Of a DNA stretch of 64,000 bases, positions 5,133-64,000 are shown in pieces. The translations under genes and the position numbers were made by a program. A model generated the notes under the pieces. That model saw only the letters and a list, made by a program, of their open reading frames with translations, did no database searches and was not told where the DNA came from. The stretch is from a virus, in the IMG/VR virus record IMGVR_UViG_3300046534_001193, positions 1-64,000 of that record; one strand, given 5' to 3'. Position 1 is the stretch's first letter. Each line of letters opens with the position of its first letter.

Positions 5133-5405
5133 CTAGCTAAAGCTTTCTGGCGTCGAAGACAAAACTTTAGTTTGCTTTGTGTCCAACATTAATACCAAGT
5201 TATTCGCTGGTCGTTTTCTACCGTCAACATTTGAATAATGTATTTTCATGTCGCCGCTAAATCTATCATCGACTTCGTTTCTTATGTTCATTTCAGGGAC
5301 ATAAGAAACACTGACCGTTTCTATTCCGCATTTATCAGCCGCTTCTTTTATCATGTTGGCAAAATCGATGTGATTCTGTGGTATTTCAATTGCTTCAATT
5401 TTCAT
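5133..5405 (-). CDS. Hypothetical protein
   Basis: 90 residues, starting MKIEAIEIPQNHIDFANMIK. No recognised domain, signal peptide or membrane segment. Same 19-base leader as the genes at 4615 and 5092. Confidence 0.6.
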   Translation of the reverse strand: MKIEAIEIPQNHIDFANMIKEAADKCGIETVSVSYVPEMNIRNEVDDRFSGDMKIHYSNVDGRKRPANNLVLMLDTKQTKVLSSTPESFS

Positions 5406-5653: not shown

Positions 5654-5682
5654 ATTATGAGGGACTGACTTTAACTTGTCAA
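5654..5682 (-). promoter_or_regulatory. Sigma70-like promoter with GTCAGTCCC spacer
   Basis: Leftward TTGACA, 17-bp spacer, CATAAT. The spacer ends gtcagtccct, shared with the promoters at 8598-8627 and 11209-11237. It would drive the small-gene operon from 5613 down to the left edge. Confidence 0.7.
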
Positions 5683-8597: not shown

Positions 8598-8627
8598 ATT
8601 ATAAGGGACTGACAATAATAAAGTCAA
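8598..8627 (-). promoter_or_regulatory. Sigma70-like promoter with GTCAGTCCC spacer
   Basis: Leftward TTGACT, 18-bp spacer ending gtcagtccct, TATAAT. Same family as 5654-5682 and 11209-11237. It drives the operon starting at 8569. Confidence 0.7.
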
Positions 8628-8668
8628 CAAGTGATTAAAAGAGCTGGTGAGTTTTAGGGGTCTATAGA

Positions 8669-8697
8669 ACCCTTAAAAGAAAACTTTGTTTAAGGGT
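8669..8697 (-). terminator. Hairpin after the 8703 gene, possible weak terminator
   Basis: Arms acccttaaa (8669-8677) and tttaagggt (8689-8697), 9 bp with an 11-base loop, just past the stop of the 117-residue gene and before the 8598-8627 promoter. No strong T-run, so termination would be weak or need a factor. The flank ggtctatagaaccc resembles the repeats near 12685 and 13183. Confidence 0.5.
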
Positions 8698-9929: not shown

Positions 9930-9951
9930 AAAAAGCCTCAATTAAGAGGCT
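9930..9951 (-). terminator. Rho-independent terminator, leftward
   Basis: On the minus strand agcctc, loop ttaatt, gaggct, then TTTTT. A second, similar hairpin (10045-10062) lies 100 bp upstream, with only a possible 20-codon frame between. It separates the cassette region (10-15.7 kb) from the operon below 9.9 kb. Confidence 0.65.
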
Positions 9952-10044: not shown

Positions 10045-10062
10045 GGCCTCAACTAAGAGGCC
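10045..10062 (-). terminator. GC-rich hairpin downstream of the 10089 gene
   Basis: ggcctc, 6-base loop, gaggcc, then TTTAAGG on the minus strand. It has the same loop type (aactaa/aattaa) and the same CCTC core as 9930-9951. Weak T-run; probably a partial terminator or processing site. Confidence 0.45.
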
Positions 10063-10088: not shown

Positions 10089-10427
10089 CTACCAACTTCC
10101 CTCAGTGATCATCCTTTGTACTTCTTGGGTAACGTCAACCGCCATAGCGTAGGCGGCAATCACAAAAGTTATATCCTCAACTCCTCGCTCTATTACTATC
10201 TGACCTAACGTCTCAGCGTCATAGTCGTCCAAGTAGGCCTTACTATTGTCCGACAATTGCGCAACGTCTCCTCTATAAGCTGTAGAGGTCAGCCATTCGT
10301 GGCCGTCCAGTGCTTCGTGGATAATGCGACCAAAAATATCATCGTCATCATTTTCGCCATAGTCGGCCATAATGTTAGTCGCTAGATCCAGTATTTCGGC
10401 TTTGTATTCTTCAAGTGTTATGTTCAT
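10089..10427 (-). CDS. Hypothetical acidic phage protein
   Basis: 112 residues with an acidic cluster (YGENDDDDIFGRIIHEALDG) and helical ends. The alternating acidic and helical pattern is common in small phage accessory proteins. No function assigned. Leader of the '..gagacaaataaaATG' type. Confidence 0.6.
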   Translation of the reverse strand: MNITLEEYKAEILDLATNIMADYGENDDDDIFGRIIHEALDGHEWLTSTAYRGDVAQLSDNSKAYLDDYDAETLGQIVIERGVEDITFVIAAYAMAVDVTQEVQRMITEGSW

Positions 10428-10462
10428 TTTATTTGTCTCGATTGTGGGTTAGTTGATATCGC

Positions 10463-10489
10463 TTTAGCCTCTCGTGTTGAAAGACTAAA
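10463..10489 (-). repeat. Intergenic hairpin, class 2
   Basis: tttagcct (10463-10470) against agactaaa (10482-10489) with one mismatch; interior ctcgtgttga. Same family as 13682-13709 and 15133-15159. Sits between the 10427 start and the clamp-like gene's stop. Confidence 0.5.
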
Positions 10490-10510
10490 CCGATTTTAAC
10501 TCGTGACTAC

Positions 10511-11208: not shown

Positions 11209-11237
11209 ATTATGGGGGACTGACAATTATCTGTCAA
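11209..11237 (-). promoter_or_regulatory. Sigma70-like promoter with GTCAGTCCC spacer
   Basis: Leftward TTGACA, 17-bp spacer ending gtcagtcccc, CATAAT, 39 bp before the ATG of the clamp-like gene. Together with 5654-5682 and 8598-8627 it forms a family with a common 20-base core around the spacer and -10. Confidence 0.75.
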
Positions 11238-11250
11238 CAAGTTTGTATAC

Positions 11251-11769
11251 TTATTTTACAGTGCCATGGTTAACGTGGTACCCGTATTTAATGTTAGCCT
11301 CCATTCTGGCTTTTATAGCGTCTGACTTGTCTTTGAAGTAGCCTAAGTGGATAGACTTGCCTTCAATACCTATTTGAACCTTCCATTTACCTGAGCGCTT
11401 GTGCCATCTAACCCCAAGTACACCTGATTTATTGTTAGACCCTACGGATTGATTTTTCATATTTTCCGAGCGCGTTGCTAGGCGTAAATTTTCTATACGG
11501 TTGTCATTGCGGTCGTGGTTGATATGGTCCAAGTCATTAAGGGGGAATTCCCCGTGAACCATGCACCAGATAAGCCTATGTGCAAGGTGTAGTTTGCCGC
11601 CAATTGTTATACTGGTATAGCCTGCCCAAGTTAATGTACCAGCCTTGACGCCCATTGGAATTCGATACGAGGCTCTAACCTTCCAAAACAGAAAACCAGT
11701 TTCAGGCTCATATCGAAGTACAGAGTTTAAATATTCTTTAGTCGGCGGATTTTGTACGGATTTATTCAT
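11251..11769 (-). CDS. HNH homing endonuclease with AP2 domain
   Basis: 172 residues from ATG 11769, chosen for AAGGTGAAAACA before it; the frame continues upstream with no SD. The HNH core is LAHRLIWCMVHGEFP, LNDLDHINHDRNDNRIENLR (about 65-100), with His/Asn metal ligands intact. The C-terminal AP2-like DNA-binding part is SGVLGVRWHKRSGKWKVQI and ends near KYGYHVNHGTVK. Such free-standing endonucleases spread themselves between phage genomes. It stands at the edge of the AT-rich gap, with the GTCAGTCCC promoter beyond its 3' end, consistent with insertion into an intergenic site. Confidence 0.85.
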   Translation of the reverse strand: MNKSVQNPPTKEYLNSVLRYEPETGFLFWKVRASYRIPMGVKAGTLTWAGYTSITIGGKLHLAHRLIWCMVHGEFPLNDLDHINHDRNDNRIENLRLATRSENMKNQSVGSNNKSGVLGVRWHKRSGKWKVQIGIEGKSIHLGYFKDKSDAIKARMEANIKYGYHVNHGTVK

Positions 11770-12684: not shown

Positions 12685-12728
12685 GGGCTCTATAGGGTCT
12701 ATAAAATCTTATGATGGTCATAAGATTT
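12685..12728 (-). terminator. Repeated element with 11-bp hairpin, leftward terminator
   Basis: Arms aaatcttatga (12704-12714) and tcataagattt (12718-12728), 3-base loop; on the minus strand the hairpin ends in TTTTATAG. The 30 bases 12685-12714 are identical to 13183-13212, and the right flank (agcgggtaaaac, ggctagtt) is shared too. Two copies of one terminator-like element bracket the 12760 gene. Confidence 0.6.
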
Positions 12729-12759
12729 CTTAGCGGGTAAAACGGCTAGTTGCTTACTT

Positions 12760-13182: not shown

Positions 13183-13230
13183 GGGCTCTATAGGGTCTAT
13201 AAAATCTTATGATACCCATAAGATTTTATA
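13183..13230 (-). terminator. Repeated element with 14-bp perfect hairpin
   Basis: Arms tataaaatcttatg (13198-13211) and its exact complement (13217-13230), 5-base loop; T-run on both strands. 13183-13212 equals 12685-12714. It lies 14 bp past the stop of the 57-residue gene and ends that leftward transcript. Confidence 0.65.
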
Positions 13231-13244
13231 GCGGGTAAAACAGG

Positions 13245-13420: not shown

Positions 13421-13645
13421 CTATAGGTCCCCTTCGTTAACGGCGCAAAAATAGTAATCCGCGCCATAGTCATAGTAAATATCCAATGTACCATCTTCGA
13501 CCGTATCGATTAGCCTGCTATGGGTCGGGCGTGTTTGGCTAGTTATATCAGCTTCATAATACACCTCAGTTAGCCATTCAATGGCTTCAGCTTCATCCCA
13601 TTGCGTGCCTGTTATAACGTCATAGATTTTAATAGCATTGGTCAT
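13421..13645 (-). CDS. Hypothetical acidic protein
   Basis: 74 residues, strongly acidic and Tyr-rich (DGTLDIYYDYGADYYFCAVN). Acidic small proteins of this kind are sometimes DNA mimics, but nothing here proves it. Leader gcgagagaataaaATG, shared with the genes at 13888 and 14198. Confidence 0.6.
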   Translation of the reverse strand: MTNAIKIYDVITGTQWDEAEAIEWLTEVYYEADITSQTRPTHSRLIDTVEDGTLDIYYDYGADYYFCAVNEGDL

Positions 13646-13681
13646 TTTATTCTCTCGCTTGTGAGTGTCGGTTTGTACCGC

Positions 13682-13709
13682 TTTAAGGTCTCAATATCTG
13701 GACCTTAAA
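13682..13709 (-). repeat. Intergenic hairpin, class 2
   Basis: tttaaggtc (13682-13690) and gaccttaaa (13701-13709), 10-base loop tcaatatctg. Flanks ggtttgtac on the left and aaactaac on the right are shared with 15133-15159, while the arms differ by compensatory changes. Lies between the starts of one cassette and the stop of the next. Confidence 0.65.
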
Positions 13710-13723
13710 ACGCTAGAAACTAA

Positions 13724-13901: not shown

Positions 13902-14198
13902 TTATTTTACTAATTGTTTAAGCGCTTCGTTAACTTCTCTCATTTCTTGCCCATAGTCGTATTCGCCTATCAAATCGATGGTGCCGAAAGAATACCACCA
14001 ACCTTCGGGTCGTTTAGTGGCTAACAATAAAACCTTATGCTTAGTTATCACGCCTACTTTGGTTTTTTGCATATCCATTAGCTTAATTTGATTTTTTAAA
14101 GGCTTGTAATATCCGACACAAGTCGAGCCAGTATTGAATAGCGAGTTAATAAACTCTTTATTGTTCAGGGCGAATTGTTTACCGTTTAGCGTGATCAT
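13902..14198 (-). CDS. Hypothetical protein
   Basis: 98 residues, MITLNGKQFALNNKEFINSL onward, with beta-rich middle and a C-terminal helix (MREVNEALKQLVK). The pattern is that of small conserved phage proteins without assigned function. Leader ctgagagaataaaATG. Confidence 0.6.
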   Translation of the reverse strand: MITLNGKQFALNNKEFINSLFNTGSTCVGYYKPLKNQIKLMDMQKTKVGVITKHKVLLLATKRPEGWWYSFGTIDLIGEYDYGQEMREVNEALKQLVK

Positions 14199-14231
14199 TT
14201 TATTCTCTCAGTTACATGCAAATCGCATTAT

Positions 14232-14257
14232 AAAGAGACCGCGTTAACAGTCTCTTT
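14232..14257 (-). repeat. Intergenic hairpin, class 1 copy A
   Basis: aaagagac (14232-14239), 10-base loop, gtctcttt (14250-14257). Flanked by aatcgcattat and taatgagatc exactly as in copy B (14673-14698). The arms differ from copy B at three positions, each with the matching change in the other arm. Not a standard terminator: no long T-run. Confidence 0.75.
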
Positions 14258-14274
14258 TAATGAGATCTACAGGG

Positions 14275-14622
14275 CTATTGCTCGGCTTTGAAATGTTTAC
14301 CTACATAGCAATACTGGTTATATTGCAGCTCGTGTATTAAACCGTCCTTACACCAATTGTCTGTAATATTGTTAAAATCTTGAGTAAATGCCGTGTAATC
14401 CTCGCCATAGTCCGCGTCCATTTCTTCTAACATTTCGTCATATCTTTCTGATAGCGCACCTTCGCTATCGATACAATTATTGTCACCCGCCCATTGTTCT
14501 ACGGCTTCCAGTTCTGAAACGTTTAGAAATTTCAATATGTGGGCCGCGACTAGAGAATCCTCGCTATTTTCTAGCAATTCCAAGGCGTACTCTTTCGCGT
14601 CGTAGTTATTGAAGTCTGACAT
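14275..14622 (-). CDS. Hypothetical acidic protein
   Basis: 115 residues, acidic (LSERYDEMLEEMDADYGEDY) and helical. No motif recognised. Overall charge and size resemble DNA-mimic type proteins, which is only a guess. Bracketed by class 1 hairpins on both sides. Confidence 0.6.
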   Translation of the reverse strand: MSDFNNYDAKEYALELLENSEDSLVAAHILKFLNVSELEAVEQWAGDNNCIDSEGALSERYDEMLEEMDADYGEDYTAFTQDFNNITDNWCKDGLIHELQYNQYCYVGKHFKAEQ

Positions 14623-14672
14623 AATAATATTCTCTATCGATTGTAAGTTGATTCAATGCGAAATCGCATTAT

Positions 14673-14698
14673 ATAGCGGCCAGTCTATTAGCCGCTAT
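14673..14698 (-). repeat. Intergenic hairpin, class 1 copy B
   Basis: atagcggc (14673-14680), 10-base loop, gccgctat (14691-14698). Flanks aatcgcattat and taatgagatc identical to copy A; the loop is unrelated. The left flank also forms aatgcga-aa-tcgcatt, a second small palindrome. Confidence 0.75.
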
Positions 14699-14715
14699 TA
14701 ATGAGATCCAAAAGG

Positions 14716-15096
14716 CTAGTGAGTTTTAGGCACCTTATAACCGTCGAACAATTGAACAATTTTAGCGGCCATAAAATTGAAATAGTTTTCAACTATTCGT
14801 TGCGCTTGCTTCTCGGTATGATCCGGTTCTAGTCCGCCTGTTTCGATGGCTAGCGTGATAACATCACAATTCATGTATGGCAGTGCAACAGCACTGGGGA
14901 GGCCTTGGAGCCATTCCCTGATTGCACCTTGAAGGCCATAGCGCGCAATATGGAAACCATATTCTGATAAGAAGGTATCATGCAAGAATTTTACTTTTTC
15001 CGGTATTGTTTCGGGATCTTGTTGGTAACCGTCGGCGGTTATGTTGGCGATTATATAGCGCTTGATTGACTGGTCCATTTCACTTGATTTACTCAT
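14716..15096 (-). CDS. Hypothetical protein
   Basis: 126 residues, helical throughout: QSIKRYIIANITADGYQQ, ETIPEKVKFLHDTFLSEYGF, QGAIREWLQGLPSAV. The 'IREWLQGLP' segment is of a type common in phage accessory genes. No function assigned. Confidence 0.6.
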   Translation of the reverse strand: MSKSSEMDQSIKRYIIANITADGYQQDPETIPEKVKFLHDTFLSEYGFHIARYGLQGAIREWLQGLPSAVALPYMNCDVITLAIETGGLEPDHTEKQAQRIVENYFNFMAAKIVQLFDGYKVPKTH

Positions 15097-15132
15097 AATA
15101 TTCTCTTTTATTGCGTGGTTGGTTTGTACTGG

Positions 15133-15159
15133 CTTAAACTCTCAATGTGAAAGTTTAAG
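15133..15159 (-). repeat. Intergenic hairpin, class 2
   Basis: cttaaact (15133-15140) and agtttaag (15152-15159), loop ctcaatgtgaa. Flanks ggtttgtac and aaactaac match the copy at 13682-13709, with three compensated differences in the arms. Confidence 0.65.
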
Positions 15160-15169
15160 ACGGTTAAAA

Positions 15170-15490
15170 CTAACGGTTATCAGGTAACAAGCTCTCAAGC
15201 TCGTTCACTATTTCAGCGTGCAATTCATCGATATCCGTATCTGCTAGTATGCTAGTAACTGCCCAATGCCGGAATCGATAGCAGGCACCCTCGAAACTAT
15301 TGTGACCAGTTTGAAAGGCCCATTCAGTGCCGTTGTCGTTGGTGGCGACGGTCAGCTCCATATAAGAAACTTCGTCGTCTTCATCATCGTTATCGATTCT
15401 GGCTTGTTCGGCGTATTTTTTCCAGTCTGCCAAGTTAGCAGTGATAAAGGCTTTGAGGTCTTGCTTGACTTCTTTTGTTAGCGTTTGCAT
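15170..15490 (-). CDS. Hypothetical acidic protein
   Basis: 106 residues. LTKEVKQDLKAFITANLADW helix, then an acidic loop (DNDDEDDEVSYMELTV) and WAFQTGHNSFEGACYRFRHW. Similar acidic 'WAFQTGDNSYTG' style phage proteins exist without a known role. Leader before ATG is short (aatcggacaaactaaa). Confidence 0.6.
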   Translation of the reverse strand: MQTLTKEVKQDLKAFITANLADWKKYAEQARIDNDDEDDEVSYMELTVATNDNGTEWAFQTGHNSFEGACYRFRHWAVTSILADTDIDELHAEIVNELESLLPDNR

Positions 15491-21759: not shown

Positions 21760-23274
21760 ATGCTTAACCAATTTAACCACAATAACGCCTCTTTCTGGCT
21801 TGGCACTCCCGCCAGTTACGAGACAGTTATCTCTGCCCAAGCAAAAATTCAAGAGCATTCAGCGCGAGGCCATTACGACGAAGACGAAGATAAAATGTCT
21901 TCACCGATCTTGTCTATATCTGAAGGTATAGCAACAGTAATGGTTCACGGCTCTCTGACTTCTGAAGACAGCTTTTACAACCAGATGTTCGGCATTACTT
22001 CTTACAACGAGATTAGAAACGCTATTATAGAAGCCGTTGGCTCTATGGAAGTCAGTCGTATTGTTTTGGACATTGACTCACCTGGCGGATCAGCCAAAGG
22101 TATCGATGACTTAGGCGACTTCATAAAGTTTGCTAGTGCACGCTTACCAATTGTAGCGCACGTATCGGGCGAGGCTTTATCGGCAGCTTGCTGGATAGCG
22201 ACTTCTTGTGACAGCATCACTGGTTCACGTATGTCGCAGCATGGCAGCATAGGCGTTATAGCAGTATTGCAAGAAATTACTAAGATGGCGGAAGACCAAG
22301 GTGTTAAATTCCACGTTTTTCGTGCGGGCAAGTACAAGGCGATCGGAAGTCCTTACGAAGAATTGACTGATGAGTTTCGAGAGATTATACAAGCTCAAGT
22401 CGACACTATCGAAGGCTTCTTTTTAGATGCTATTTCAGATAATAGGGGCATCCCTCGCGGTTCGGTCAAAGCCCGAGTCGGCGAAGGTTTAACGTTTTTT
22501 GCTGCAGAAGCAGTGGACAAGGGGCTATTAGACGAAGTATTATCCATACAGGACTTGCTTACTAGACTAATAAGCCTGTCAAATTCAAACCCGAGAGGGC
22601 TAAATGCATCTACCGAGGAAACATCAATGGCCACTAAAGCCTTAACTGCAAAAGCTTCAGCTGCATTGGCCGCTGGTGCATCCGATGAAGAAATCAACGC
22701 ACTTCTTTCCGCTGCTAGCGAAGAAGAACTTACTGCTGAGCAGATCGCCGCTAATCTGGCTGCTGCCAAGTTAGAAGGTGAAGGCGCAGGTGAAGAACTT
22801 ACTGCTGAGCAGATCGCCGCTAATCTGGTCGTCGAAGGTAAAGGCGTAGAACTTACCGCTGAAGAGTTGGAAATTAAAGCTGCGGCAGATCTAGCCGCAG
22901 CTCCCACCGCTCCAGTCGTAGATCATTTGGTCACTTATCTTAAAGAAGAAAACCAAACACTCCGGCAAAAAATTACAGGCTTAGAGTCTGACAGTTTGAA
23001 ACTTGCGGAACTAAATACAATGATTCCTCAGCTGAAAGCTGCGCTTGGCGAATACGTCTCAGGCATGTCGGTCCGCTTAGGTGGATCGCATTTGGACACT
23101 TCTTCGTTGGAACTTCCTTCTCTGATGGCGCAATACACTAGCACTCGAACGGCTATGTTAAAGCGTTATCCTGTCGGTGGACAAGCCAACGTCGACGATT
23201 CAGAGTCAGATAGCTCTGATGCTGACACTGCAACCGTTACTTACATGCGTTCTGTTAAACAGAACACTATCTAA
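21760..23274 (+). CDS. Capsid maturation protease (S49) fused to scaffold
   Basis: 504 residues. N-terminal ~280 residues are an S49/ClpP-like serine protease: DIDSPGGSAKG, the serine in SGEALSAACWIA (about residue 141) and the lysine in RAGKYKAIGSP (about 193). The C-terminal ~215 residues are the scaffold: Ala/Glu-rich helices, a duplicated EELTAEQIAANL segment (37-bp direct repeat at 22723-22759 and 22792-22828) and a coiled coil (YLKEENQTLRQKITGLES). The layout is that of lambda C/Nu3: the protease trims scaffold and itself inside the prohead. Confidence 0.88.
   Translation: MLNQFNHNNASFWLGTPASYETVISAQAKIQEHSARGHYDEDEDKMSSPILSISEGIATVMVHGSLTSEDSFYNQMFGITSYNEIRNAIIEAVGSMEVSRIVLDIDSPGGSAKGIDDLGDFIKFASARLPIVAHVSGEALSAACWIATSCDSITGSRMSQHGSIGVIAVLQEITKMAEDQGVKFHVFRAGKYKAIGSPYEELTDEFREIIQAQVDTIEGFFLDAISDNRGIPRGSVKARVGEGLTFFAAEAVDKGLLDEVLSIQDLLTRLISLSNSNPRGLNASTEETSMATKALTAKASAALAAGASDEEINALLSAASEEELTAEQIAANLAAAKLEGEGAGEELTAEQIAANLVVEGKGVELTAEELEIKAAADLAAAPTAPVVDHLVTYLKEENQTLRQKITGLESDSLKLAELNTMIPQLKAALGEYVSGMSVRLGGSHLDTSSLELPSLMAQYTSTRTAMLKRYPVGGQANVDDSESDSSDADTATVTYMRSVKQNTI
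22627..23274 (+). CDS. Scaffolding protein from internal start (Nu3-like)
   Basis: In-frame ATG at 22627 within the protease gene, preceded by CGAGGAAACATCA, a good Shine-Dalgarno. It would give a 215-residue protein, MATKALTAKASAALAAG onward, consisting of the scaffold only. Lambda makes Nu3 the same way from within C. The SD is not needed to encode the linker (STEETS), which supports the call. Confidence 0.7.
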   Translation: MATKALTAKASAALAAGASDEEINALLSAASEEELTAEQIAANLAAAKLEGEGAGEELTAEQIAANLVVEGKGVELTAEELEIKAAADLAAAPTAPVVDHLVTYLKEENQTLRQKITGLESDSLKLAELNTMIPQLKAALGEYVSGMSVRLGGSHLDTSSLELPSLMAQYTSTRTAMLKRYPVGGQANVDDSESDSSDADTATVTYMRSVKQNTI

Positions 23275-29368: not shown

Positions 29369-29413
29369 AAACAAAACGTCAATAAGTTGCTTGAACTTAT
29401 TGACGTTTTGTTT
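29369..29413. terminator. 20-bp perfect hairpin between tail tube and chaperone genes
   Basis: Arms 29369-29388 and 29394-29413 are exact complements, loop gcttg; followed by T and A-rich sequence on both strands. With the hairpin before it this is a tandem barrier that would sharply lower expression of the chaperone genes relative to the tube protein. Confidence 0.75.
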
Positions 29414-53280: not shown

Positions 53281-55419
53281 TTAAAGTTCGACTATATTGG
53301 TGGCAACGCCTTTGTCGGACTCTCTGTGAGTTACCATAAGTACCTGTTCATTGCCGAGAAGGGCGCCTGACAATCTCATGGCGGGCTCTTCTCGCATTGC
53401 CTCTGTAGGTTCATCCAGCACCACAAGGGCACAGGAGCTGCGCAAAGACTTCGCCAATGCTAATCTGACAGCTACGCCTATGAAGCCTCTCTGCATGCCA
53501 GACGCACTCTCTACCGGTGCAAATACACCATCTTCACAATACATAAAGCCTTCTTTTTCCGATCGCATCAGTGCAGTGATACTGTTATTAGTCGATTGCA
53601 TCAGAAATCCTGAAGCCGCACCGAGTATGTTAGCCCATACTGAGGTCAGGAACCTAGAACGAGAGTCTTTCAAGTATTGTACAAAGTCTGACAAAGTTTT
53701 GACTTTACCTAGCTTTTCTTGGAATTCCAGTTCATCAGCCAAAGCCTTGCCTAGCTCTTTGATTTCCGTAGCCATCTCAGACAGCTGAATCTTCGCACCG
53801 TTTATAAGGTCTCTCGATTGGTTGAAATCAACTTCAAATTGCTTTATCTCATCCCGCAAGGTTTGAAGGGCAAGTTGACCTACGACTGGTAAAGACAATC
53901 CGTGTAGCTGCGCCAAGTCGGCATTGGCTGCTTTGATGCCTTCCTCCGCACTTGCCAGCTTAGCCGCATTATCATTTATCTGCTTTTGCAGGGAGGTTGC
54001 TAAAGTTTGAGACTTTCTGTCGTTCTGCAATAGCTTAGACTCGGCACCGGTATCAGTCCAAATAGCAGTTTCTAAGTAGGCATCATTTTCTGCAATACGC
54101 TCTTCCCAATCCAATTGCCGCTTGTGCCAGCCTTTGTAGTACGTGTCGTAATCCTGCTCTTCGGCGTCAAATATAGGCTTGGCGATAGCTGCCTTATCTT
54201 CTATCTCTGCCAGCTTGGCCAGCAATGGTTTTAGAGAGTCTTTAGCTGATTGCAGCTCTTCTACGTGCGCAGCCTTTGACTCTTCACTGACAATGCTCTG
54301 CTTACAGGCTGAGCAAACGCCTGAGGCTAAGGCTTGTTCGGTTGCAGTTACAAGGGATTGGGCACTTTTAGCTTCAGGGGATATTTTTGCGTAATCCTCG
54401 CGCAATTGGTCTACAACTGCTTTAGCTTTGGTAACTTTGTTGGATAGCTCATTGTCATTGATAATTCCAGCTTTGCAATTTCCTAAGACCTCCTTAAACT
54501 TCTCAGAGCTTTCCTTTACTCGGGCTATCTCTGTATTGGTTGCAATAGCTTTATTGTTATTTCGCTCACGTTGATCAAGATCTTCTTCGCTTGCTATTTC
54601 GCCTAGTTCAGCCAGCTCAGCAGCCAGACTTTTAGCAGTTGCACTGTACAATGCTTCTGAGGCTATAGCGCTTCCTAAAGTATTTTCAGCTACCGCAATG
54701 TCCCGAGTATTCTGCTCAGCCTTCTGGTTGCCTTGTTCACCGGCTTCTAAATGTCGCTGCGATATAGCCTTGGAAGCTGTCGTTTTAGCAGAGTCGTCTT
54801 CCTCTTCTGCGATGTTTTTAGCTAATTCAGCATGTTCAGCTGTGACTTCTTTTGTTCGGGACTCGATTTCGGCTGCGCTGCTAGTAACTCGACTCTCCGA
54901 AAACGAATCAGTATCGCGCTTCAAATCTCGCAAGTCGGTGCCAGCCAGCTTAATCATTTCGTCAATGAACTCGACGCCCGAGAACCTCTCTACGTCGCGC
55001 TGCAGCTGAGTTGAACCGATAGTTAGCAACGCTGATGTCTCGCCTTGTGCTGACCAGTTCAGCATTCTGAAACCTTTCAGGTCGGTGCCTGTTATATTTT
55101 CTTCAATGTAGGCTGAGCAGACGGAGTTACCAGTGGCAACCGGTGTGTTATCGACTAACACTTTGCAATTCTTCAAGGTGCGAATGATTGTATATTGAGC
55201 CATAACTACTATTACTTCACAGTCTTTCTCTCCCCAAGTCGGAATCTTGTCGGCGCTACCTGGTACAGCTTTGACGCCAAACAAGGCAAACATCAGCGCT
55301 TGGGTAACCGTAGTCTTACCCTTGGCGTTGTCACCGCAGATAATGTTCAAGTCTGGCGTGAAGTCGAAGTGTCCACTAGCCAGCTTCTTAAAGTTTTTAG
55401 TTGTGATAGATTTTAACAT
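53281..55419 (-). CDS. sbcC: SbcC/gp46-like recombination nuclease ATPase
   Basis: 712 residues. Walker A GDNAKGKTTVTQALMF (about 29-44), long antiparallel coiled coils, a zinc-hook CSACKQS near the middle, the ABC signature region SASGMQRGFIGVAVRL, and Walker B CALVVLDEPTEAM, ending VLMVTHRESDKG. It partners with the SbcD-like nuclease (next gene) in an MR-type complex that processes DNA ends and hairpins, as T4 gp46/gp47. Shorter than E. coli SbcC (1048), close to phage gp46. Confidence 0.92.
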   Translation of the reverse strand: MLKSITTKNFKKLASGHFDFTPDLNIICGDNAKGKTTVTQALMFALFGVKAVPGSADKIPTWGEKDCEVIVVMAQYTIIRTLKNCKVLVDNTPVATGNSVCSAYIEENITGTDLKGFRMLNWSAQGETSALLTIGSTQLQRDVERFSGVEFIDEMIKLAGTDLRDLKRDTDSFSESRVTSSAAEIESRTKEVTAEHAELAKNIAEEEDDSAKTTASKAISQRHLEAGEQGNQKAEQNTRDIAVAENTLGSAIASEALYSATAKSLAAELAELGEIASEEDLDQRERNNNKAIATNTEIARVKESSEKFKEVLGNCKAGIINDNELSNKVTKAKAVVDQLREDYAKISPEAKSAQSLVTATEQALASGVCSACKQSIVSEESKAAHVEELQSAKDSLKPLLAKLAEIEDKAAIAKPIFDAEEQDYDTYYKGWHKRQLDWEERIAENDAYLETAIWTDTGAESKLLQNDRKSQTLATSLQKQINDNAAKLASAEEGIKAANADLAQLHGLSLPVVGQLALQTLRDEIKQFEVDFNQSRDLINGAKIQLSEMATEIKELGKALADELEFQEKLGKVKTLSDFVQYLKDSRSRFLTSVWANILGAASGFLMQSTNNSITALMRSEKEGFMYCEDGVFAPVESASGMQRGFIGVAVRLALAKSLRSSCALVVLDEPTEAMREEPAMRLSGALLGNEQVLMVTHRESDKGVATNIVEL

Positions 55420-56450
55420 TGCACTAGCCCTCTGTAATATTCATAAGTTTCTTCCAGATCCCCGCCCTTAAGCTGTTCGGCAATAACCTCTGGCAGCTTG
55501 TCAAAGTCGACCGTCTCAATTACTTGGTGGTCTTCACTGACAATGCGAACACTGTTGCGAATCATTAATACGCCTGGGTGCTGCCAATAGTGCTTAATAG
55601 CCTCAGCTAATTGCACACCTTTGTCAGCTGTTATTTCACCTTTGATATCGACGATTGTAGTCGTAGCATTTAGCTCTGGCAGCAAGTCTTCTGCGTTAAA
55701 GTCGATCTCTTGGTAGCAGGTCTCCATAGACCAAATCAAAGTCTTGTCTAGACTGGTAGGCGTCAAATCGTAGTAATACTTATCAGAGATGTCTGAAAAG
55801 CTGGTAGGGTGAGTGCAACCACAGATGACTAGTCTGCCGCCGAGCAATTGCCGAGGCTGATGCTCGTGCCCGAGAAAGATGTAGTCGCAGATTGTTAGCA
55901 ACTTCTCTGCTTGCACCTTAGTCAGATTAAGGCTGGTGTCGAGGCCTTGTGTGTGGCCATTCTCATAGTTGCAATGTAAGAAGACTGCGCGAAAGGTTGA
56001 CTCGTCATGTGCATAATCCATCGACTCTAAGGCTGCGTCAAATAGCTCCTGCGAGCCGTGGTGAGGTACAAAGGCCAAAGACATGCCTTCAAGTTCACCG
56101 TACTCGACGTGATGGCTGGCGAAGTCAGGATTGATAAGAAAGCTAGTTTCGGGCAACATCTCTGCCAATAGATCCAGAGAACTAACACTTTCAGCTACAT
56201 TTAAGCTGTCGTGGTTGCCCGCCAGTACAACATCGTAGTGCTTAGCCACCTTGGCAGCTTTTAATATATCGGCTTCTGAATTGGAGTAAGTGTCGAAAAG
56301 ATCGCCTACGCAAACTTTCGCTTTCGGCTTGCCTGCGGTTACTGAGTGTAAGGCATTGTAGTGGATAGCCTCGGCCAATGCGGCTCGGGAGGCTTTGGTT
56401 GTATGTGACTTACGTTGCAGAGCCAAGTGTGGATCAGTGGATATTCTCAT
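55413..56450 (-). CDS. sbcD: SbcD/gp47-like metallophosphoesterase nuclease
   Basis: 345 residues. Metal-binding phosphoesterase motifs: TDPHLAL (near 6), VGDLFDTYSN (about 48), LAGNHDSLNV (about 77), FLHCNYENGHTQG (about 160) and FLGHEHQPRQ (about 195). Forms the nuclease half of the complex with the SbcC-like ATPase; stop/start overlap of 7 bp with it. The start MRISTDPH lacks the usual few residues before DxH, so the N-terminus is minimal. Confidence 0.9.
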   Translation of the reverse strand: MRISTDPHLALQRKSHTTKASRAALAEAIHYNALHSVTAGKPKAKVCVGDLFDTYSNSEADILKAAKVAKHYDVVLAGNHDSLNVAESVSSLDLLAEMLPETSFLINPDFASHHVEYGELEGMSLAFVPHHGSQELFDAALESMDYAHDESTFRAVFLHCNYENGHTQGLDTSLNLTKVQAEKLLTICDYIFLGHEHQPRQLLGGRLVICGCTHPTSFSDISDKYYYDLTPTSLDKTLIWSMETCYQEIDFNAEDLLPELNATTTIVDIKGEITADKGVQLAEAIKHYWQHPGVLMIRNSVRIVSEDHQVIETVDFDKLPEVIAEQLKGGDLEETYEYYRGLVQC

Positions 56451-63762: not shown

Positions 63763-64000
63763 TTAATCTGCTGGGTACAATTCGTTCAAGTTGTCAATGA
63801 CAGCTCCAAGCATGTAGTTTGTTTTCATATCAATGTAGTCCTGATCTAACCCGATATCCTGCAAAGCCCTGCCAAAATACATTATCCCAGTCAAGACTGT
63901 CGAGTAGCAAATTTGCTGTCGACGCTGAATATCTTTAGGTATAAAGTCGTTGAAAAAAGCCATAGTTTCTTTGACCCACTGAGAACCGGTATCGAGGCTG
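63763..64000 (-). CDS. Hypothetical protein, open to right edge
   Basis: The frame is open to the window edge (SLDTGSQWVKETMAFFNDF, then IPKDIQRRQQICYSTVL). A 66-residue form could start at ATG 63963, but its SD is poor, so the true start is probably outside the window. Helical with ALQDIGLDQDYIDMKTNYML. Function unknown. Confidence 0.5.
   Translation of the reverse strand, partial: SLDTGSQWVKETMAFFNDFIPKDIQRRQQICYSTVLTGIMYFGRALQDIGLDQDYIDMKTNYMLGAVIDNLNELYPAD

Follow-up and report, generated by a model that had tools for sequence, protein, structure and literature searches.

Intercistronic hairpins with compensatory arm changes in leftward early operons of an uncultured phage

Two families of imperfect hairpins were found between small genes in the leftward early region of an uncultured phage of about 82 kb, and the members of each family differ by changes that are matched on both sides of the stem. 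We favor as the more probable explanation that the elements are intercistronic mRNA hairpins of the early operons, which would serve as a boundary of expression at the RNA level. That they act at the RNA level in one way or another is quite likely, and RNA processing or stability is tentatively put forward as the likeliest single mechanism. We infer the function of the elements from their position and shape. Early phage operons consist of small unknown genes in rows, and little is understood of how their expression levels compare. When an RNA element with compensatory arms recurs at gene boundaries, it flags these as functional and opens a direct way to study them by experiment.

Family A and its setting

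The window analyzed here, 64,000 nucleotides long, begins at position 1 of a virus record of 81,991 bp and ends at position 64000. Matches for portal, head and tape measure mark the virus as a tailed phage with a long tail, and its terminase is 36-37% identical to those of Vibrio phages of the SHOU24 kind. From 15724 to 12760 the minus strand carries every gene; these genes are small and closely spaced, and they presumably share a single transcript. Since the genes at the elements are on the minus strand, the mRNA corresponds to that strand, and the hairpins are therefore to be read in the minus sense. The genes next to the elements and the two family A elements are as follows.

14716..15096, minus strand: 126-codon gene between elements B2 and A2, family phrog_11100 (unknown function)
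14662..14708, minus strand: element A2, second 47-nt copy, base identical to that of A1, top with four two-sided compensatory changes
14275..14622, minus strand: 115-codon acidic gene lying between A2 and A1, similar in part to a protein of Erythrobacter phage XM05
14221..14267, minus strand: element A1, 47-nt hairpin of 4 bp, a U.C mismatch, 5 bp, a bulged A and 10 bp
13902..14198, minus strand: 98-codon gene downstream of A1
13421..13645, minus strand: 74-codon gene downstream of element B1
10089..10427, minus strand: 112-codon gene downstream of element B3

The original prediction placed hairpins with 10-nt spacers at 14232-14257 and 14673-14698, and we located them exactly there. Their 8-bp arms are AAAGAGAC/GTCTCTTT and ATAGCGGC/GCCGCTAT. 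As had been proposed, the arms differ between the copies at three positions, every one of which is matched in the other arm, and the flanks AATCGCATTAT and TAATGAGATC are identical at both hairpins. The 10-nt loops, which had been called unrelated, are not wholly unpaired, since part of the loop pairs in the minus sense. Beyond the 8-bp arms there is a U.G pair in both copies, followed by G-C in one copy and A-U in the other; this fourth two-sided change is reached through the shared U·G pair. The flanks also pair with each other in the minus sense (GATC-U-CATTA with TAATG-C-GATT, plus the bulged A), so that each element is one 47-nt, 19-pair imperfect hairpin and not an 8-bp hairpin with unpaired flanks. 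The top stem of A1 has 11 bp in the minimum free energy fold, compared with 10 bp in the element model.

Comparison of the two copies showed that the base is identical (0 of 21 positions differ), with the U·C mismatch and the bulged A retained in both, whereas 12 of the 26 top positions differ. Both copies nonetheless keep all 19 pairs, four of which are changed on both sides. When the partner strand was slid by one to three columns as a control, at most one two-sided change appeared. Shuffling the 3' letters, a weak control with two sequences, matched the observed value in 32 of 500 cases. In a simple neutral substitution model with independent sites, the ten upper pairs stayed intact with at least four double changes in about 3-8 per 100,000 trials. 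The composite pattern of family A occurs exactly twice in the record when up to 3 mismatches are allowed, and the reversed-pattern control does not occur. A scan for flank-matched hairpin pairs in the window and about 100 fetched loci found two pairs in the window with three arm changes each; elsewhere it found one pair with a single change (in a distant relative, L062), one weak GC-rich match (L075), and repeats without real arm change. The family A hairpin pair is not due to chance.

It was proposed that selection acts on the structure and not on the sequence. The compensatory changes in the top support selection on pairing, but the base, which is formed by the flanks as the lower stem, is conserved in sequence. 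Selection also acts on the base sequence, or the base reflects a recent duplication; the invariant bases could come from such a duplication instead of from function. A recent duplication could explain the identical base, but not a top that has diverged at 12 of 26 positions with every pair kept. A candidate switch through a mutually exclusive hairpin, AATGCGATTTCGCATT, at A2 was dropped, as A1 retains a weak form only.

Family B, coding strand and position

The scan for hairpins sharing flanks also found a second family in the same operon, like family A in size and design. A covariance model of its first two members identified a third one in another early gene gap (match at 10446-10506; with filters off its E over the window was 2.7e-5, and the E-values are rough owing to short calibration).

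15122..15170, minus strand: element B2, 49 nt, from the scan for shared flanks
13671..13720, minus strand: element B1, 50 nt, from the scan for shared flanks
10452..10500, minus strand: element B3, 49 nt, from the covariance model

Relative to B1, B2 has three two-sided changes and one one-sided change from C-G to U.G. Across the three members, four pairs carry two-sided changes (in five cells) and 95.8% of the cells are paired. Shuffles of the three-member alignment reached the main values in 1 to 8 of 500 cases, which by the tool's own warning are not probabilities. The sense-strand fold of B3 has a z of -5.2.

The same operon contains a third hairpin pair, family C, at 12685-12743 and 13183-13241, with 59-nt copies that are 92% identical; the arms are CTATAAAATCTTATG/CATAAGATTTTATAG, and the base of one copy is imperfect. 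A related stretch lies at 8628-8678. In the late region, an inverted repeat at 29369-29413 has perfect 20-bp arms and a 5-nt loop. An exact 37-nt direct repeat occurs at 22723-22759 and 22792-22828, 69 nt apart. At 53281-56450 lie genes whose products resemble SbcC and SbcD, the subunits of a palindrome-specific nuclease, which is notable given the many inverted repeats.

The paired structure had been described as either RNA or DNA. The pairing stands, but the strand is not neutral. U·G pairs are found at top pair 9 in both family A copies, at one pair in B2 and B3, and at a second pair in B3, and all of them hold in the sense strand only. Because these pairs would turn into A·C in the antisense RNA and would not match in DNA, RNA is favored over DNA. 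Folding of the full intervals gave a more stable sense strand for A1 (-20.3 versus -14.5 kcal/mol antisense), A2 (-22.0 versus -17.8 kcal/mol), B1 and B3, and a less stable one for B2 (-13.3 versus -15.4). Together, the U·G pairs and the stability of the sense folds favor minus-strand mRNA, short of proof.

The elements, which are 47, 47, 50, 49 and 49 nt long (A1, A2, B1, B2 and B3), take similar positions between genes. A1 begins 7 nt after a TAG stop and ends 22 nt before an ATG, and A2 begins 7 nt after a TAG and ends 39 nt before its ATG. B1 begins 3 nt after a TAG and ends 25 nt before an ATG, B2 begins on the last base of a TAG (-1) and also ends 25 nt before an ATG, and B3 begins 10 nt after a TAA and ends 24 nt before an ATG. 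All five therefore start between 1 nt inside the stop codon and 10 nt after it, and four of five end 22-25 nt before the next ATG; with A2 at 39 nt, the spacing to the start is not strictly constant. The hairpin thus occupies the space left between the ribosome that terminates and the footprint of the one that initiates, a reading that relies on generally known sizes of ribosome footprints.

A start-associated sequence such as AACTGAGAGAATAAAATG is common to several genes. Longer than a ribosome-binding site and placed just 5' of start codons, it takes forms such as GAGAGAATAAAATG and AACTAAGAGAACTAATATTATG, and on the minus strand it occurs at 14209, 13899, 13656, 11184, 10439, 9641, 5418, 5105 and 4628.

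Proposed action and alternative explanations

In the explanation we favor, the hairpins would function as part of the minus-strand mRNA. Lying after one gene's stop and before the following gene's start, each would mark a boundary within a polycistronic early transcript. The hairpin may be an endonucleolytic processing site of RNase III-like shape (a stem of about 20 bp interrupted by a mismatch and a bulge) that would then protect the resulting ends. Alternatively, it may separate the terminating ribosome from the next initiation site. The outcome would be that each early gene has an expression level of its own. No RNase III is encoded in the record, so that processing by RNase III would need the host enzyme.

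The fixed base and the free top suggest two parts, namely a base recognized by its sequence and a top whose one requirement is to form a stem. An unlikely extension is that this is a previously undescribed two-part phage RNA element, in which a sequence-fixed base with a bulge and a mismatch lies under a top fixed in pairing only. The base would be recognized by a dedicated protein, which the phage itself may encode, or by the ribosome as it terminates; with near-constant distances to stop and start codons in successive gaps, one factor could set the expression of many early genes.

Searches for known elements returned no match that would identify the hairpins. In the window, Rfam at the gathering score gave one tRNA only and no match at the elements, and the sigma-70 promoter scan called none at the elements and three promoters of the TTGACA/TATAAT type elsewhere in the region. 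As the original prediction held, the elements are not ordinary terminators: no T-run directly follows the stem, and the terminator scan had no match at them. The integron attC cores GTTRRRY and RYYYAAC are absent from all five elements on either strand. We accordingly rejected terminator, sigma-70 promoter, attC site and Rfam family as identities. Two terminator-like hairpins, GGCCTCTTAGTTGAGGCC and AGCCTCTTAATTGAGGCT, were seen on the minus strand in neighboring gaps at 10045-10062 and 9934-9951; their outer pairs differ by a matched change from G-C to A-T.

A boundary for recombination at the DNA level, with the conserved bases serving as linkers like PeSLs or as folded single-stranded sites like attC in the shuffling of early genes, is quite unlikely. 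In its favor, the elements begin at stop codons and are repeated between genes that are unrelated, enclosing single genes or groups of genes, and the early gene sets differ in relatives. Against this stand the missing attC cores, the G.U pairs that favor RNA, and the searches of the record, which found neither a tyrosine integrase (PF00589; a host enzyme might act instead) nor a Y1 transposase. The related idea that the hairpins frame a cassette stands insofar as the two family A copies bracket the 115-codon gene. The framing is topological only: the second family has three members in the gaps of other early genes, and, as noted, neither an integrase nor a Y1 transposase turned up in the record.

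A promoter with a dyad operator is improbable. A perfect TATAAT -10 hexamer ends both family A copies where the stem exits (TTTATAATG in A1 and CTATATAATG in A2), and the ESAS of mycobacteriophages hold SigA-like promoters with inverted repeats (PMC11373665). However, a -35 hexamer at 16-18 bp is absent, the promoters called in the region lie elsewhere, and covarying arms are ill-suited to a duplex operator that is read by sequence. Strong sigma-70-type promoters (11 of 12 matches) were observed on the minus strand at 11209-11237, 8598-8627 and 5654-5682. They share a dyad, GTTGAC-N8/9-GTCAG, over the -35, together with a CCC-(C/T)ATAAT context, and the dyad is perhaps a candidate operator of a phage repressor.

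Self-templated repair is a serious competitor as an explanation of the matched arm changes: template switching during replication would copy one arm of a palindrome onto the other, and no selection would be involved. It is a known mutational route for quasi-palindromes and would yield such changes. We nevertheless hold it to be improbable as well: it tends to erase mismatches and bulges, yet both family A copies keep them in the lower stem, B3 has U.G where a perfect palindrome would be expected, and each element keeps a set spacing to the stop and start codons around it.

Attenuators of transcription, or sites of anti-termination, that work through Rho or a phage factor with no need of a T-run are very improbable. 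Stable hairpins directly after stop codons within an operon would suit them, but the stems lack a T-run and gave no match in the terminator scan, termination at one gap after another would leave the operon's distal genes short of transcript, and anti-termination sites are usually near a promoter and not in successive gene gaps.

Relatives and known systems

The family A and B patterns had no copy outside this genome among 2.9 million viral contigs, and the family A pattern had none among 84,980 genomes; such scans need exact flanks and could miss diverged copies. None of the outside matches to the A pattern folds as the element, and the recurring ones are near-identical copies of one unrelated sequence; the only one that folds well (L009) lies inside a long open frame resembling an HNH gene. 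Two matches to the B pattern do not fold as the element, and a later scan gave none. Neither the 126-aa protein nor the terminase led to a close relative in direct peptide searches. Alignment searches led to three relatives, L035, L036 and L119, with a terminase identity of 62-64%. L036 and L119 are the nearest relatives that have sequence upstream; their genes in that region are different ones, and no such hairpins occur there. L035 has almost no upstream sequence. Covariance models gave weak matches only in 1.07 Mb of relatives; the best one (E 0.03, in a 19% GC stretch of L094) had an E above 1 under the three-member model. Families A and B are known from one genome, with two and three members, respectively. 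Covariation among repeats within one genome can thus reveal RNA elements preserved in no sequenced relative.

Hairpins were also noted in other genomes. In the distant relative L062, two hairpins lie close together at 5304-5321 and 5369-5386 (TTTCGGACATGTCCGAAA and TTTCCGACATGTCGGAAA); their flanks match and they differ by one compensatory change, a pattern of the type described here. Vibrio phage K478b (L032) has gene-gap hairpins at 10333-10361 and 11225-11251, in which the inner TTTGGTC/GACCAAA is common and the outer arms differ.

Among known systems, the ESAS of cluster K mycobacteriophages occur with SAS (PMC3203893) and were later found to hold putative promoters (PMC11373665). Like the elements described here, ESAS are imperfect inverted repeats with a variable spacer (4-13 bp in ESAS). 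Both are present in several copies in a genome, lie in the gaps before non-structural genes, and precede a start-associated sequence that is itself repeated; the start-associated repeats of this phage resemble SAS. A pair of imperfect inverted repeats of about 17 bp with a variable spacer is present here as well (19 pairs with one mismatch and one bulge in family A, and similar in family B). The sequences and hosts are different, however. The 13-bp SAS GGGATAGGAGCCC was not found, the repeats here being GAGAGAATAAAATG or AAGAGAACTAATATTATG, and the elements do not contain -10/-35 hexamers 17-18 bp apart, a -10-like TATAAT being present in family A only. ESAS arms are conserved as sequence and carry -10/-35 hexamers, whereas the tops here change by compensation and no -35 is found.

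Phage T7 has several RNase III sites between its early genes. Its early RNase III signals, e.g., R1.1 (PMC4858673), are likewise irregular hairpins in phage RNA. Here, too, early genes are separated by an irregular duplex of about 20 bp; RNase III cleavage itself is putative in this phage, and the base, unlike that of the T7 signals, is conserved in sequence.

A conserved base, an extrahelical base and a variable top also belong to the anatomy of integron attC sites. Like the elements, attC sites are structured and directly follow a stop codon. The elements differ from integron attC sites (PMC11641012) in the absence of core sites, in that no integrase was found, and in the G.U evidence for RNA.

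The PeSLs of T4-type phages, described by Arbiol in 2010 and Comeau in 2014, reportedly combine a promoter with a terminator stem-loop. They share with the elements the repetition of intergenic stem-loop units between unrelated early genes, and they differ in being promoter plus terminator, neither of which was called here.

As testable defining features of ESAS, PeSLs and attC sites were not found, the elements are not assigned to these families, nor to the T7 signals. By organization they most resemble ESAS, the T7 RNase III signals and the T4-type PeSLs, with membership established in none, and by analogy they may work like an intercistronic processing or insulating hairpin.
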